DNA from: Rhodococcus sp. (in: high G+C Gram-positive bacteria)
GTDB lineage: Bacteria > Actinomycetota > Actinomycetes > Mycobacteriales > Mycobacteriaceae
Direction of reading: 5' to 3'
Assembly (NCBI GenBank): GCA_012514505.1
Contig: JAAZAD010000113.1
Coordinates: 1-45,695 of the forward strand
DNA: 45,695 bases
Made by a program: the position numbers and the translations under genes. Below, piece after piece: positions 36,913 to 45,695 of the stretch. A model generated the notes under the pieces. That model was given only the letters and a program-made list of their open reading frames with translations, ran no database searches and was not told the origin of the DNA. Every line of letters begins with the position of its first letter. The first letter of the stretch is position 1.

Positions 36913-37929
36913 ATGGCGAACGACGAGGCGAACGGTTCCTCGGCAGCCGGTACCTTCGGTCATGTTCCCGTGCTGCTCCGCAGGGCTGACGAACTGCTCT
37001 CACCCGCTCTGACGGGAGTCGACGCAGAGGGCACCGACGCGGTCATGATCGACGCGACCCTCGGCCTCGGTGGCCACTCCGAACACTTCCTTCGCACGTA
37101 CCCGCAACTGCGGCTGGTGGCGCTGGACCGTGATCCCAATGCTTTGCGCATTGCCGCGGACAGGCTGTCCGACTACGCGGACCGCGTCACCTTCGTTCAC
37201 ACCCGGTACGACGGAATCGTCCCGGCTCTCGAACAGGCAGGGCTCAGGGCGCACGAATCGGTGCACGGGATCCTCTTCGACCTGGGTGTGTCGTCGATGC
37301 AGCTCGACGAGGCGGATCGCGGTTTCGCGTATTCGATCGACGCTCCGCTCGACATGCGTATGGACCCGACGGTCGGCATCACCGCCGCGGAAGTGCTCAA
37401 CACCTACTCACACGGCGACCTTGCTCGCATTCTCAGTACGTACGGTGAAGAGCGCTTCGCGGGCAAGATCGCCTCCGAGGTACTGCGTCAGCGTGAGAAG
37501 CAACCGTTTGCCACCAGCGCCGAACTGGTCGAGCTTCTGTATCGAACGATTCCCGCCGCCACTCGCCGCACTGGTGGCCATCCCGCCAAGCGCACCTTCC
37601 AGGCGTTGCGCGTGGAGGTCAATGGCGAACTGGACTCGCTGCGTGCCGCCATTCCGGCAGCCCTCGACTCACTCACGGTGGGTGGGCGTGTCGTCTTCAT
37701 GTCGTATCAGTCGCTGGAAGACCGCGTGGTCAAACAGGAGATCGTCCCGCGCGCCAAGTCGAAGAGTCCCGAAGGGCTTCCGGTCGAACTCCCTGGGATG
37801 GGGCCGGAGTTTCGGATTGTCACCCGAGGTGCGGAACGTGCCTCGGATCAAGAGATAGAAGAGAACCCACGATCAGCTCCGGTGCGTTTGCGCGCCGCAG
37901 AAAGAATTGCCAGGAGGGCGACGGCATGA
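36913..37929 (+). CDS. rsmH: 16S rRNA (cytosine1402-N4)-methyltransferase RsmH
   Basis: 338-residue SAM-dependent methyltransferase (formerly MraW). [16 protein letters not shown] begins the conserved part. [16 protein letters not shown] is the SAM-binding motif, [32 protein letters not shown] the family signature, and [12 protein letters not shown] the C-terminal motif. GGCGGAGGCGAAG precedes the ATG. Its stop overlaps the ATG of the ftsL-like gene. Standard second gene of dcw clusters. Confidence 0.96.
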
Positions 37930-38591
37930 CTGTTCAGGTGAGTTCCCCACGGACGGCTCGTCGTGGTGGTCGCCGATCCGGCGCGGCGCAGCGTGCCTAC
38001 GAGCGGCGGACGCAGCGTGCGACCGTGCACAGTGACTCCGGTGTCTCTGCCAAGGCGAGCGCTGCGGGCGCGGCAACGATGGCAGCACGCATTCCGTTCG
38101 TGGCGACGATCATCGGCATGCTGGCGCTCGGTCTCGCGCTGACTCTTCTGCTCACGACGCGGTCGGCGGAGGACTCCTACGAACTCAGCGAGGCCCGCGA
38201 GTACAACCAGAGTCTCATCCGTGAGAAGGCTTCCCTCGAGCGTGACGTGGAGACCGCGAACTCGGCGCCGAGACTGGCGTCCGAAGCGGCCGAGCTGGGC
38301 ATGGTCCCTGCCATCGATCCCGCGCGACTGGTCGTGCACCCCGACGGTTCGGTCGAGGTGATCGGTACTCCCGCCCCGGCAACAGGTACGCCAGTTCCGC
38401 CGCTGAACGCGCCGGCGCCGTCTGATCAGCCCAGGACAAGCGTGACCACTCGTACCGATCGGACCTCTTCGGAATCGACCCGAACGCACGCCACGCCGAC
38501 TCCCGGCAATGACACCAGGATCCAGGCCGAGGGTGAACAATTGGTCCCCGTGATACCTTCTACCGCTTCATCCGACGGCGGTCGCGAGTGA
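37926..38591 (+). CDS. ftsL: FtsL-like division membrane protein
   Basis: 221-residue bitopic protein. A basic cytoplasmic N-terminus ([23 protein letters not shown]) is followed by one membrane helix at about 56-76 ([21 protein letters not shown]). A short coiled-coil segment comes next ([26 protein letters not shown]) and then a Pro/Thr-rich tail. Position between rsmH and pbpB, size and topology match the actinobacterial FtsL equivalent (Rv2164c). It should join FtsQ/FtsB in activating septal wall synthesis. ATGA overlap with rsmH and GTGA overlap with pbpB show tight coupling. Confidence 0.88.
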
Positions 38592-40441
38592 GCCGAAGCG
38601 CACCACGCGGCAGGCCACGGCGCCCCAACTCCGGAGGAACGAGAAACTTCCCGTTCCGCCATCGAGTGGGGCGTTTCGCCATATTCGCGGCGCTCGGTCT
38701 GACCGCGCTGCAGCTGCTGTGGGTGCAGGGGGTGCAAGCGCCACGTCTGTCGGCAGAAGCTGCCAGTCAACGGACCACCACGAAGGTGGACCCGGCTCTC
38801 AGGGGCGCGATCACCGACCGCAACGGCAACCCGATCGCATTCACGATGGAAGCGAAGGCGCTCACCTTTCAGCCGGCGCGGGTGCAGAAGGAACTCGAAG
38901 AAGCACGGAAGAAAAGCCCCGACGCCCCTGAAGTGGAAGAACGTCTGACGGCCATTGCAGACGAGATTCACGACCAACTCGGTGACGCAGCGCCCGAGGA
39001 GGAAGTACTCGACAAGCTTCGGAGCGACAAGACGTTCGTGTACTTGGCCCGCAGCGTCGACCCGACGATCGCAGCAGACATCGCCGAGAAATACAGCGAG
39101 GTTGGTCTCGAACGTCAGGACATTCGCGAATATCCCGGTGGGTCACTTGCGGCGAACATCGTGGGTGCCACCGGATGGGATGGGCACGGACTCCTCGGGC
39201 TCGAGGATTCCATGGATTCCATACTGGCCGGAACGGATGGCTCGGAAACGTACGACCGCGGCTCGGACGGAGCCGTCATCCCCGGTAGTTGGCGAGACAA
39301 GCAGCCTGCAGTCGACGGGTCGAGCGTCGAGCTCACCATCGACTCCGACCTGCAGTACTACGTCCAGCAACAGGTGCAGCTGGCGAAGGAGAAGTCGGGC
39401 GCGCAGAACGCGTCGGCCGTCGTCCTCGATGCGCAGACGGCCGAGGTGCTGGCGATGTCGAACGACAGCACGTTCAATCCTGCGATCGGTGTAGGTAACA
39501 ATCCGCCTTCCGCCGAGATGGGCAACCTTTCCGTGACCACGCCGTTCGAACCGGGATCGGTGAACAAGATCATCACGGCGGCAGCAGCCATCGAGTACGG
39601 GTTGACCACCCCCGACGAGGTGCTACAGGTGCCGGGCAGTATTCGGATGGCGGGCGTGAGCGTGCGGGATGCGTGGGAGCACGGCGTGGTGCCGTACACC
39701 ACGACCGGAGTATTCGGGAAGTCGTCGAACGTCGGCACCCTGATGCTGGCGCAGCGCATCGGCGAAGACCGATTCGCAGACATGCTGAAGAAGTTCGGGC
39801 TCGGCCAACGCACGGAGGTGGGCTTGCCCGGCGAAAGTGCAGGCAACGTTCCACCACATGACCAGTGGTCCGGCGGTACGTTCGCCAACCTTCCGATCGG
39901 GCAGGGGCTCTCGATGACCCTGTTGCAGATGACCGGTATGTACCAGGCGATGGCGAACGACGGTGTCCGAATTCCTCCGCGAATCGTCGATGCCATTGTC
40001 GAACCGGACGGAGACCGCACCGAAACGGAGCGCCCTGAAGGGGTCGACGTGGTGAGCCCGGAAACGGCGCGCACCGTTCGTGACATGTTCCGGTCCGTTA
40101 CGCAGGACGATCCGATGGGTGTGCAGCAGGGGACCGGTGTGGCGGCTGCCGTGGACGGTTACCAGATCGCTGGAAAGACCGGAACGGCGCAGCAGGTCGA
40201 CCCGTCGTGTGGCTGCTATTCGAACTCTCAGTACTGGATTACTTTCGCCGGGATCGCACCGGCAGACGATCCTCGGTACGTCATCGGAATCATGCTCGAT
40301 GCACCTGTTCGCAGCGCGGACGGTTCCGGTGGTGCCTCCGCGGCGCCGTTGTTCCACAACATTGCTTCGTGGATGCTGCAACGTGACAGCGTGCCGATGT
40401 CGCCGGAACCAGGGCGTGAACTCGTGTTGCAGGCCGACTGA
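38588..40441 (+). CDS. pbpB: Class B penicillin-binding protein, septal transpeptidase PBP3/PbpB
   Basis: 617-residue membrane transpeptidase (FtsI). One N-terminal membrane helix lies at about 28-46. The pedestal region begins LRGAITDRNGNPIAFTMEAK. The catalytic motifs are SVNK (Ser324, Lys327), SSN (378-380) and KTGT (529-532), all intact. The tail CGCYSNSQYWITFAGIAP with Cys residues before the end is notable but within family variation. The GTG start overlaps the ftsL stop. Linked to murE after 151 bp. It cross-links septal peptidoglycan and is a beta-lactam target. Confidence 0.96.
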   Translation: MSRSAPRGRPRRPNSGGTRNFPFRHRVGRFAIFAALGLTALQLLWVQGVQAPRLSAEAASQRTTTKVDPALRGAITDRNGNPIAFTMEAKALTFQPARVQKELEEARKKSPDAPEVEERLTAIADEIHDQLGDAAPEEEVLDKLRSDKTFVYLARSVDPTIAADIAEKYSEVGLERQDIREYPGGSLAANIVGATGWDGHGLLGLEDSMDSILAGTDGSETYDRGSDGAVIPGSWRDKQPAVDGSSVELTIDSDLQYYVQQQVQLAKEKSGAQNASAVVLDAQTAEVLAMSNDSTFNPAIGVGNNPPSAEMGNLSVTTPFEPGSVNKIITAAAAIEYGLTTPDEVLQVPGSIRMAGVSVRDAWEHGVVPYTTTGVFGKSSNVGTLMLAQRIGEDRFADMLKKFGLGQRTEVGLPGESAGNVPPHDQWSGGTFANLPIGQGLSMTLLQMTGMYQAMANDGVRIPPRIVDAIVEPDGDRTETERPEGVDVVSPETARTVRDMFRSVTQDDPMGVQQGTGVAAAVDGYQIAGKTGTAQQVDPSCGCYSNSQYWITFAGIAPADDPRYVIGIMLDAPVRSADGSGGASAAPLFHNIASWMLQRDSVPMSPEPGRELVLQAD

Positions 40442-40592
40442 GGGTGTACGGCGCGCATGCGCACCTTGGCCGGGTCCGGCTTCGGGGAGAAGCGCGGTAA
40501 TCTGACACGTCGACGTAGCGTCGGATCGTGAGTCACGGTCCGGCGTGCAGTTGTTCGACGACCGACCGATGAACCACGTCCGAGGTGTTCGG

Positions 40593-42287
40593 ATGTACGA
40601 GAGGAGCCAGGTGCCCGAGCCGTCCCGTTCGCAGTCGCCGACGACCTCGGCGGCTGCCGCCGCGAACATCCGGCCCGAGGTCCCCGTCGTCACACCCCTG
40701 GGAGATCTCGTATCGCTCACCGGTGCGCGGATCGACTGGGTCGGTGACGCAGTCGGTTCGAACGACGCAGCACGTTCTGAAGACGCGCTGGGTTCGGCAG
40801 TGACGGTCACCGGTATCGATTTGAGAGCGCAGGCAATCGTCGCCGGCGACCTGTTCGCAGCGCTGCCCGGAGCACGTGTGCACGGCGCAACGTTTGCTTC
40901 GGACGCGGTGGACAGGGGTGCTCGCGCCGTGTTGACAGATCCGGCAGGCCTCGATCTGATGAACGCGGCGGGATCGCCCGAGGGTGTGCCGATCCTCGTC
41001 CACGAGAGCCCACGTGCCCTGCTGGGGGCAATGTCGGCAACGATCTACGGGCATCCGACCGAGAAGATGACGGTCATCGGGATCACCGGTACTTCGGGGA
41101 AGACCACCACGTCGTATCTGGTCGAGGCGGCCCTCGCTGCAGGTGGACGCACCCCAGGCCTGGTGGGGACGATCGAGACCCGCATCAAGGGGAATCGGGT
41201 GCCGAGTGCACTGACCACCCCGGAAGCACCGCAACTTCATGCCCTTTTTGCCGTGATGCTCGAACAGGGCATCGATACGTGCGTGATGGAGGTGTCGAGT
41301 CACGCGTTGGCGCTCGGCCGTGTGGACGGTGTTCGTTTCGCGATCGGCGCCTTCACGAACTTGTCGCAGGATCATCTCGATTTCCATCGTGACTTCGAGG
41401 ATTACTTCGCTGCGAAGGCTCGTCTGTTCGAGGGTGGTTCTGCGATCCGGGCGAGGCACGCTGTCGTGTGTGTCGACGACGAGTGGGGTCGCCGGATGGC
41501 CGGCATCGCCCGCGACGCCGGAGCGTCCGTCACCGCAGTGGCCACCACCCCGTCCGAACCGTTGGAGCGGCCGCAACAACGGGCGGATTGGCAGGCGACA
41601 CGAGGCGGTCTCGACGCCAAAGGAATTCAGACATTTCACCTCGTGGACCCGTCGGGCCACGCGAACGAGGTGCGATTGCGCTTGCCGGGCGACTACAACG
41701 TCGCGAACGCCTCGGTTGCCGTGGCGATCGCGGAGGCGGCGGGAGTTCGAATCGAAGACTCGGTACCCGCCCTGGCGGCGGTGGACGTTCCGGGCCGCGT
41801 CCAGCGTGTCGATCGCGGACAGGATTTCATGGCGGTTGTCGACTATGCCCACAAACCGGCAGCACTGGGCGCTGTGATCGGCACGTTGCGTGGCCAGTCT
41901 TCCGGTCGGTTGGCGGTGGTTGTCGGTGCAGGCGGCGACCGCGACAAGGGCAAACGTGAACTGATGGGCGCGGTGACGGCCCGCGGAGCGGAACTGCTGA
42001 TCGTTACCGACGACAACCCGCGCACCGAAGACCCGTCCGTCATCAGGGCCTCCGTTCGAGGAGGAGCCGAGGACGTACCTCAGGCCGAGCGCGGCGAGAT
42101 TCGTGAGGTGGCCGATCGAGCGCGCGCGATCGCAGAGGCGGTCGAGTGGGCACGTACAGGTGATGTGGTGCTCGTGGCAGGTAAGGGCCACGAGACAGGG
42201 CAGGAGGTACACGGGGTGAAGCACCCGTTCGACGACCGCGCGGTACTGGCGGAGGCGATCGACCGAAGGATCGGAGGCGGGGCATGA
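40593..42287 (+). CDS. murE: UDP-MurNAc-tripeptide synthetase MurE (meso-DAP adding)
   Basis: 564-residue Mur ligase that adds meso-diaminopimelate to UDP-MurNAc-L-Ala-D-Glu. ATP loop GITGTSGKTTTSYLVEAAL, central TTPEAPQLHAL and EVSSHALALGRV, the carbamylated-lysine region DYFAAKARLF, and the DAP-selecting DNPR in VTDDNPRTEDPS are all present. Several in-frame starts exist (GTG 40545, ATG 40569, ATG 40593, GTG 40611). ATG 40593 has GAGGTG 5 nt upstream and is used; GTG 40611 with GAGGAG is nearly as good. Its stop overlaps the murF ATG. Codon use is that of the left 42 kb. Confidence 0.94.
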   Translation: MYERSQVPEPSRSQSPTTSAAAAANIRPEVPVVTPLGDLVSLTGARIDWVGDAVGSNDAARSEDALGSAVTVTGIDLRAQAIVAGDLFAALPGARVHGATFASDAVDRGARAVLTDPAGLDLMNAAGSPEGVPILVHESPRALLGAMSATIYGHPTEKMTVIGITGTSGKTTTSYLVEAALAAGGRTPGLVGTIETRIKGNRVPSALTTPEAPQLHALFAVMLEQGIDTCVMEVSSHALALGRVDGVRFAIGAFTNLSQDHLDFHRDFEDYFAAKARLFEGGSAIRARHAVVCVDDEWGRRMAGIARDAGASVTAVATTPSEPLERPQQRADWQATRGGLDAKGIQTFHLVDPSGHANEVRLRLPGDYNVANASVAVAIAEAAGVRIEDSVPALAAVDVPGRVQRVDRGQDFMAVVDYAHKPAALGAVIGTLRGQSSGRLAVVVGAGGDRDKGKRELMGAVTARGAELLIVTDDNPRTEDPSVIRASVRGGAEDVPQAERGEIREVADRARAIAEAVEWARTGDVVLVAGKGHETGQEVHGVKHPFDDRAVLAEAIDRRIGGGA

Positions 42288-43792
42288 TCCCGATGACTCT
42301 CTCCCGTATCGCGGAGATCGTCGGCGGCCGGTTGTCGGATGTGGACGACCCATCTCGAGTCGTATCCGGCAGTGTCGAGTTCGATTCGCGGAAGGTGACC
42401 TCGGGCGGTCTGTTCCTCGCCTTGCCGGGTGCGCGGGTCGACGGCCACGAGCACGCTGCGGCAGCTGTCCAAGCGGGCGCTGTCGCGGTGCTCGCCGCAC
42501 GCGAGGTCGGTGTACCCGCGATCGTCGTTCCGCCGATTCCACCGGAGACCGCCAGTCGTGCGATGGCGCTCGAACACGACCAGGACGGGTCCGGTGCGGC
42601 AGTCCTTGCTGCACTGGCGAAGTTGGCTCGGGCGGTGGTCGACGAGCTGACCGAATCGGGTCTCACCGTGATCGGGGTGACGGGTTCCGCAGGGAAGACC
42701 TCGACGAAGGATTTGATGGCGGCTGTCCTACGTCCACTGGGATCGGTGGTGGCGCCGCCCGGGTCGTTCAACAACGAACTCGGCCATCCCTGGACGGTGC
42801 TGCGCGCCACGGAGTCCACCGACTTCCTGGTGCTGGAAATGTCGGCGCGACACCGGGGCAACATCGCGGCGCTGGCCGCCATCGCGGTCCCGTCGATCGC
42901 GGTCGTGCTCAACGTGGGCACCGCGCACCTCGGGGAGTTCGGCTCACGGGAGGCCATCGCGGCGACGAAAGCCGAACTACCCCAAGCCGTTCCGCCCGGT
43001 GGTGCGGTGATCCTCAACGTCGACGACGCCACGGTGGCCGCGATGGCCGAGCTGACCCGCGCCCGGGTGGTCCGGGTCAGCAGGGAGCCGGGCGCGGCGG
43101 ACGTCGACGTGTGGGCCGATGCCGTCACGCTGGATGCGTTGGCGCGGCCACGCTTTCGGCTGCACGCCGCCGGTCGTCAGGTCGACGTCGCGCTGGCGGT
43201 GCACGGCGATCACCAGGTATCCAACGCGCTGTGCGCGGCGGCCGTCGCGCTGGAATGCGGCGCCACCATCGAACAGGTGGCAGGTGCGCTGGCCGCGGCG
43301 GGCCCGGTATCGCAGCACCGCATGGCGGTCGCGACCCGAGACGACGGCGTGACGATCGTCAACGACGCCTACAACGCCAACCCCGACTCGATGCGGGCCG
43401 GGTTGAAGGCGCTGGCCTGGATGGCGCGCGACGGTGGGGGACGCCGCAGCTGGGCGGTGCTCGGCGAGATGGCCGAACTCGGCGACGACGCGATATCCGA
43501 GCATGACGACATCGGTCGGCTTGCCGTGCGATTAGATGTGTCACGACTCGTCGTCGTAGGAACCGGGAGGGCTATGAGCGCCATGCACCACGGTGCGGTG
43601 ATGGAGGGATCGTGGGGCTCTGAGGCCACCATGGTCGCCGACGCCGACGCCGCGCTGGCGTTGCTGCGGGCCGAACTGCGGCCCGGCGACGTGGTGCTGG
43701 TCAAGGCGTCCAACGCGGCGGGGCTGGGCTCATTGGCCGACGCTTTGCTCGATCTTGGGGCCGCCGAGTCCACCGACGGGGACGACGGATGA
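42284..43792 (+). CDS. murF: UDP-MurNAc-pentapeptide synthetase MurF, composite sequence
   Basis: 502-residue ligase that adds D-Ala-D-Ala to the UDP-MurNAc-tripeptide. Conserved blocks are [39 protein letters not shown] (ATP loop), [41 protein letters not shown] and [13 protein letters not shown]. The protein is full length and intact. The DNA is not uniform: the first 60 codons have 13 A/T third positions, as in upstream genes, but after about 42741 these become rare and the sequence looks mycobacterial. The reading frame continues across the change, which falls in a highly conserved stretch. ATGA overlaps join it to murE and mraY. Confidence 0.93.
43530..43605 (+). other. Rare-codon island inside murF with an internal SD-ATG
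   Basis: Within the very GC-rich part of murF, the codons for [16 protein letters not shown] include TTA, TCA, CGA, GTA, GGA, AGG and GCT, most of them rare in this segment. The stretch ends with GGGAGG 3 nt before an in-frame ATG at 43574. The cause is unknown; an overlapping nucleotide-level signal is possible. Confidence 0.5.
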
Positions 43793-44868
43793 GGCAGATC
43801 CTCATCGCCGTCGGCATCGCGCTGACGGTGTCGATCCTGCTGACCCCGGTGCTGATCCGGCTGTTCACCCGGCAGGGGTTCGGCCACGAGATCCGCGAGG
43901 ACGGGCCGCCGAGCCACCACAAGAAGCGGGGCACCCCGTCGATGGGCGGGGTGGCGATCGTCGCCGGGATCTGGGCCAGCTACCTGGGCACCCACCTGGT
44001 CGGCATCGTCATGGACGGCAAGGGCCCGTCGGCCTCGGGCCTGCTGGTGCTCAGCCTGGCCACCGCGCTCGGCCTGGTCGGCTTCCTCGACGACCTGATC
44101 AAGATCAGGCGGGCACGCAACCTCGGCCTGAACAAGACCGCCAAATCGGTCGGGATCCTGGCCGCCGCGGTGATCTTCGGGGTGCTGGCGCTGCAGTTCC
44201 CCAACGCCGACGGCCTGACGCCGGGCAGCGCCGAGCTGTCCTACGTCCGCGAGATCGCCACGGTCACGCTGCCGCCCGCGATCTTCGTGCTGTTCTGCGT
44301 CCTGATCGTCAGCGCCTGGTCGAACGCGGTGAACCTGACCGACGGCCTGGACGGGTTGGCGGCCGGCGCGATGGCCATGGTGTGTGCGGCCTACGTGCTG
44401 ATCACGTTCTGGCAGTTCCGCAACGCCTGCGCGATCACCCCCGGGCTCGGCTGCTACAACGTGCGCGATCCGCTGGACCTGGCGATCATCGCCGCGGCCA
44501 CCGCGGGCGCGTGCATCGGCTTCCTGTGGTGGAACGCCGCGCCGGCCAAGATCTTCATGGGCGACACCGGTTCGCTCGCACTCGGCGGCATCATCGCCGG
44601 GCTTTCGGTCGCCAGCCGCACCGAGATGCTCGCGGTGGTGCTCGGCGCGCTGTTCGTCGCCGAGGTGGTATCGGTGGTCGTGCAGGTCATGGCGTTCCGC
44701 ACCACCGGGCGCCGGGTGTTCCGCATGGTGCCGTTCCACCACCACTTCGAGCTGGTGGGCTGGGCGGAGACGACCGTCATCATCCGGTTCTGGCTGTTGA
44801 CGGCGATCGCCTGCGGGCTGGGGGTGGCGCTGTTCTACAGCGAATGGCTCACCACCGTCGGGGCCTGA
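43789..44868 (+). CDS. mraY: Phospho-MurNAc-pentapeptide transferase MraY
   Basis: 359-residue polytopic membrane enzyme that transfers phospho-MurNAc-pentapeptide to undecaprenyl phosphate, making lipid I. Signatures: [27 protein letters not shown] with the Asp pair, [27 protein letters not shown] and the histidine motif VPFHHHFEL. About ten membrane helices are visible. The ATG overlaps the murF stop. Its DNA has no A/T third position in the first 60 codons, unlike genes before 42.7 kb. It reads as a mycobacterial mraY. Confidence 0.95.
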
Positions 44869-44869
44869 C

Positions 44870-45695
44870 GTGACCGACCTCGCTCCGCTGGTGCGCGGCG
44901 CCCGGGTGTTGGTGACCGGCGCCGGCCTCACCGGGCGCTCGGTCAGCGCCGTGCTCGAACCCACCGGCGTGCGGTTGACGATCTGCGACGACGACCCGTT
45001 GGCGCTGCAGCGGCTGATCACCCCCGCCGCCGTCGTGACGACCGCGCAGGCCGAGGCCAACATCGGCGACTACGCGCTGGTGGTCACCAGCCCGGGCTTC
45101 TCCCCGGCCACCCCGGTGCTGGCCGCCGCGGCCCGCGCGGGCGTGCCGATCTGGGGCGACGTCGAGCTGGCGTGGCGGCTGGACCGCGCGGGCCGGTTCG
45201 GGCCGCCGCGTCGCTGGCTGGTGGTGACCGGCACCAACGGCAAGACCACCACCACCTCGATGCTGTACGCGATGCTGGTCGCCGCGGGCCGGCGAGCGGT
45301 GCTGTGCGGCAACATCGGCAACCCGGTGCTCGACGTGCTCGCCGAACCGTCGGACATCTTGGCCGTCGAGCTGTCCAGCTTCCAGCTGCACTGGGCCCCA
45401 TCGGTGCGACCGGACGCCGGGGTGGTGCTCAACGTCGCCGAAGACCACCTGGACTGGCACGGGTCGCTGCAGGCCTACGCGCGCGACAAGGCCCGCGTGC
45501 TCGACGGCCGGGTCGCCGTGGTCGGGCTCGACGACCCGGTGGCCTCGGGCCTGCTCGAGACGGCCGCGGCGTCGGTGCGCACCGGTTTCCGGCTCGGGGA
45601 GCCGGGCCCGAATGAGCTCGGCGTGCGCGACGGGATGCTGATCGACAACGCGTTCGGCGACCAGGTGCGGCTGGCCGAGGTAGCCACGCTCCCAC
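44870..45695 (+). CDS. murD: UDP-MurNAc-L-alanine:D-glutamate ligase MurD, N-terminal part
   Basis: Partial gene of about 275 codons running off the window. GTG at 44870 is 1 nt after the mraY stop. The translation begins [29 protein letters not shown]. It continues with a Rossmann-like N-domain, the ATP loop [17 protein letters not shown] and [12 protein letters not shown] followed by [14 protein letters not shown], all MurD hallmarks. It adds D-glutamate to UDP-MurNAc-L-Ala. Composition is that of the mycobacterial-like segment. No stop codon occurs in frame before the window end. Confidence 0.93.

Follow-up and report, generated by a model that had tools for sequence, protein, structure and literature searches.

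Genes and codon composition of the contig

The window, i.e. the whole stretch of DNA analyzed here (45,695 bp), corresponds to contig C27 in full (G000:C27:1-45695), one of 609 contigs in a draft genome bin totalling 4.94 Mb and estimated to be 96.93% complete with 6.93% contamination. Its right-hand region harbors dcw genes on the forward strand, named, like those of contig C77 below, by eye from sequence and gene order. Open reading frames, homology and a tree delimit a Rhodococcus-type block at 36913-42763, comprising mraW (rsmH), ftsL, pbpB, murE and the first 480 bases of murF. This block is followed by the remainder of murF (42774-43792), by mraY (43789-44868) and by murD (44870-45694), which is cut off at the contig end (45695). 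The murF reading frame stays open across its entire length (42284-43792), as the earlier note had described.

That note had also drawn attention to a drop in codons with A or T at the third position, and a recount returned identical numbers: 18 of 60 codons in murE (41820-41999) and 13 of 60 at the start of murF (42284-42463), compared with 9 of 60 at 42839-43018 and 0 of 60 at 43789-43968. GC3 amounts to 0.72-0.75 in mraW, ftsL, pbpB and murE, and to 0.97 in mraY and 0.96 in the part of murD contained in C27. A fit with one change point in GC3 gained 90.9 log units, compared with 11.6 at most in 300 permutations. Judged by GC3 only, the change point falls at position 43789 (2-log-unit interval 43610-43813), which we rejected as the place of the join, being ~1 kb too far to the right, in favor of a base-by-base comparison with C77 and the mycobacterial genome G594. 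An analysis of composition alone would therefore set the join about 1 kb off. The shift arises because the mycobacterial part of murF is itself less GC3-rich than the genes that follow, with 50 A/T-ending codons among 338, compared with 41 among the 160 codons preceding the join (Fisher p 0.004). Within this part, positions 43484-43573 hold 12 A/T-ending codons out of 30 in GC-rich surroundings; G594 has the same stretch, which is thus natural in mycobacterial murF.

DNA of two genera meets within murF

Origins of the two sides were analyzed separately, as the earlier note had proposed, and the best-scoring matches indeed fall into different genera, the bin's own genus (g1) on the left and g29 on the right. 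We read g1 as Rhodococcus-type and g29 as mycobacterial from their placement in two MurF trees. These trees, both of the quick type with SH-aLRT support only, started from 37 chosen loci. One of these (L045) gave no MurF frame and two more (L019, L049) were left out of the N-part tree, their N-parts being too short, yielding 35 rows including the window for the N-part, and 38 rows including the window and C77 for the C-part. In one separate search, two hits (L117, L124) came from C27 itself and were disregarded.

The origin of the left part was tested from 36913 onward, with homology searches on 40545-42718, and by base composition only for 1-36912. Best-scoring matches of 40545-42718 come from g1 at 71%, closely followed by genus g10 at 70-71%, so that no single genus stands out clearly for the left part, whereas mycobacterial g29 reaches at most 66% among the matches listed (201 genomes scored). 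In the N-part tree, the window groups with Rhodococcus tibetensis and two genomes of its own genus (support 96). For murE, the bin yielded a single copy. By homology and tree position, the DNA up to about 42763 is assigned to the Rhodococcus-type organism of the bin.

Right of the join, the picture is a different one. In a family search with 42774-45695 covering 401 genomes (289 scored, 112 unscored), the best 24 foreign matches listed all belong to g29 (75-86%), while the own genus attains 72% at most among the matches listed. Among the best 80 of 588 named relatives compared for the 3′ part of MurF, the 27 best matches are Mycolicibacterium, Mycobacterium and Mycolicibacter at 74-84% amino-acid identity, compared with 60-62% for Rhodococcus and Rhodococcoides among the matches listed. 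A comparison with 277 g29 genomes drawn from the larger genus, 275 of which matched, led to G594, a mycobacterial genome in a single contig of 5.6 Mb. The 3′ part of murF (42774-43792) is identical to G594:C1:2332641-2333659 at 1019 of 1019 bases, its protein likewise, and identity is complete over the 1186 bases of 42764-43949. The next matches to 42774-43792, among those listed, are G455 at 89% and G571 at 90% over 970 bases. In the C-part tree, the window is identical to G594 inside the mycobacterial clade (support 99). Over the entire right part (42774-45695), an ungapped comparison, including mraY, finds differences at just 34 of 2922 sites. Leftward, the same gap-free comparison shows window and G594 differing at 57 of 164 sites in 42600-42763. 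On the strength of these alignments and the tree, the DNA from about 42774 to 45695 is attributed to a mycobacterium very near G594.

The differences from G594 are themselves unevenly distributed, 32 of the 34 lying in one patch of 427 bases within mraY (43950-44376), 25 of them at third codon positions. The flanks of this patch are 100% (42774-43949) and 99.85% (44377-45695; 2 of 1319 sites differ) identical to G594. The patch itself is nearer to G455 (97.2%, 415/427) than to G594 (92.9% by BLAST) in a comparison from which 15 loci of the window's own genome had been excluded beforehand. It may reflect either ordinary allelic replacement between mycobacteria, in either direction, or a second assembly switch.

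The displaced continuation and the join

The bin contains a second version of the genes right of the join. C77, a whole contig of 4333 bp, carries on its reverse strand the 3′ part of murF (68% DNA match to that of the window), mraY (C77:2169-3242; protein 72% identical to that of the window), murD and the start of an ftsW-like gene. By gene, its GC3 is 0.71-0.78, like the left part of C27. DNA of C77 was compared within the own genus only, where matches occur in all 27 relatives and reach 74% over almost the full length; other groups were covered by the protein tree, in which the C-part of its MurF groups with Prescottella and Rhodococcus (support 87). Hits of the left part and of C77 lie at the exact register distance in 25 of the 26 relatives showing both, the sole exception, G019, being off by 15 bases. 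Register was measured from hit ends, taking for G013 that of its second short hit. The remaining relative, G017, whose match to C77 is confined to the ftsW portion, shows neither hit here and is not counted, so that C77-type sequence follows here in 26 of 27 relatives. The conserved register argues that, very probably, the left part natively continues into C77. A second mraY-like locus, 70-72% identical in DNA to mraY of C77, is present elsewhere in 10 of the 27 relatives (G001, G002, G003, G012, G013, G016, G018, G021, G022 and G023).

C77 also speaks to another reading of the compositional shift, natural variation within one Rhodococcus genome caused by strand, expression or gene-specific codon bias. 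GC3 does differ among genes and among 30-codon blocks, but homology changes at the join along with composition, and the native counterparts on C77 show none of the high values of the window's mraY and murD. The complete match of 42774-43792 to G594 refutes this reading, to which we assign practically no probability.

Comparison of the three sequences places the join to within a few bases. The reverse complement of C77 opens with 55 bases that exactly repeat positions 42719-42773, and the following base differs, being A in the window (42774) and C in C77; 30 more bases match before the sequences diverge. Agreement with G594 sets in after a mismatch at 42763 and agreement with C77 first breaks at 42774, so that the join falls between 42764 and 42774, where positions 42764-42773 are the same in the window, C77 and G594. 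This lies inside the interval of 42741-42840 given by the earlier note, which had seen the change within or beside a conserved coding stretch of murF; the join sits inside such a stretch of 13 conserved residues. As described in PMC10914622, contigs broken at forks retain end overlaps of maxK length in metaSPAdes and MEGAHIT, and an overlap of 55 bases is as expected for a fork in a de Bruijn graph with k=55. The repeat forms the end of C77 and lies in the interior of C27, as would be expected had C27 been extended past the fork. Pairwise comparison of four contigs found no end-to-end overlap, and the far end of C77 and both the start and the end of the window match no other contig; the value k=55 is thus supported by a single pair of contigs.

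Two real alleles coexisting in a population would equally produce a fork with such an overlap of 55 bases. Homologous recombination might have brought a mycobacterial murF-mraY-murD segment into the Rhodococcus line, with C77 as the unrecombined allele of sister cells, and the continuous frame and the same gene order on both sides agree with such an event. Yet the bin retains Rhodococcus-type versions of the murF 3′ part, mraY and murD on C77, so that the own alleles were not replaced, although a mixed population could hold both. Of the foreign tract only the left boundary is seen, and C27 stops inside the foreign murD with no switch back to Rhodococcus-type sequence up to that point. The murF portion of the tract shows no change relative to a mycobacterial genome already sequenced, the arrangement common to 26 relatives is that of C77, and C77 and G594 are only ~67-69% alike across murF-mraY-murD-ftsW. 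We consider genuine recombination very improbable, and equally slim is the chance of what it would entail, namely that some Rhodococcus-type cells carry at least 2.9 kb of recent mycobacterial murF 3′-mraY-murD DNA and a hybrid MurF of two genera, beside cells with the native allele. If true, essential peptidoglycan genes would have passed from one genus to another. The earlier note had offered recombination of this segment as its alternative, for which no positive support was found; as nothing found calls for recombination, chimeric assembly is preferred.

Proposed formation of a chimeric contig

Characteristics of an inter-genome chimera thus come together in C27: the best-matching organisms differ between its two sides in searches and trees alike, a native continuation is found elsewhere with an overlap of k-mer length, and the donor side runs collinear and gap-free with another real genome. 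We are highly confident that C27 is a chimeric contig of Rhodococcus-type and mycobacterial DNA and that it is a technical artefact, by whichever route, be it a wrong graph branch, chimeric reads, wrongly corrected reads or template switching. Its final 2.9 kb are almost certainly DNA of a mycobacterium wrongly attached within the conserved cell-wall gene murF, and the compositional shift in murF is an ordinary artefact rather than a biological feature. The main proposal of the earlier note, mycobacterial reads joined to a rhodococcal contig, is borne out by the two genera, the 1186 identical bases shared with G594 and the 55-base overlap with C77.

Given that both origins, the position of the join, the displaced branch of native type and the overlap are established, we infer that a wrong branch was taken in the assembly graph. 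A mycobacterium would have been present in the sequenced material, and the k-mer graph would have forked in the conserved murF stretch. C27 would then have been extended along the mycobacterial branch, the true branch being left over as C77, which repeats the 55 bases preceding the fork. Either the assembler resolved this fork wrongly, or a few chimeric or wrongly corrected reads may have fed it. The stretches common to C77 and G594 measure just 10 bases ahead of position 42774 and 30 bases beyond it, both less than k=55, and the error therefore probably originated ahead of the final step at k=55. Candidate routes are a step with smaller k, a strain variant or error correction making position 42774 an A, in which case C77 and G594 would share 41 bases, and a few chimeric reads.

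The shortness of these shared stretches is also what speaks for template switching, in which library PCR or whole-genome amplification would have joined the murF genes of the two organisms, followed by faithful assembly, so that the join would exist in molecules but in no cell. Ten bases, and 30 more past one mismatch, are too short for a clean merger at k=55, and template switching is able to use such short matches. Against this, few switched molecules are expected relative to the true branch, although it is these that the contig would follow. We regard this route as unlikely, its probability forming a small share of that given to an artefact of any kind. A wrong turn in the graph remains the preferred reading.

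A 17-kb mycobacterial dcw query from genome G077 revealed no other near-identical mycobacterial piece in the bin. Beyond murD, this query matched C77 at 67-68%, C242 at 67% over 187 bases, C313 at 79% over 234 bases and C402 at 80% in a 50-base piece. Read by eye from their open reading frames, C242 and C313 carry an ftsW/rodA-like gene and ftsZ, respectively, and the RodA/FtsW-like gene accounts for the weak match of C242. On C242 (L127), genes for an FHA-type protein, a PP2C-type phosphatase, the RodA/FtsW-like protein and the start of a penicillin-binding protein stand in a row, again by eye.

For use of these data, the chimera means that the 3′ part of murF, mraY and murD of C27 are unfit to represent Rhodococcus genes in trees, codon studies and transfer surveys. 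Inter-genome translocations are given as the most frequent misassemblies in CAMI data sets in PMC9661791, while the GUNC authors (PMC8201837) rate misassembly as relatively rare beside mis-binning, which counts against an artefact. Compared with inter-genome translocation misassembly as portrayed in the metaMIC (PMC9661791) and GUNC (PMC8201837) papers, C27 likewise combines DNA of two organisms at a conserved stretch in a contaminated bin. Nothing essential differs from what they describe, the case of C27 having in addition a displaced branch and a near-identical donor genome. A further parallel can be drawn to the fork-broken contigs of COBRA, as set out in PMC10914622, in that C77 starts with an exact 55-base repeat ending at the first differing base. 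The overlaps described there, however, lie at contig ends on both sides and join contigs of one population, whereas here one of the two copies lies inside C27.
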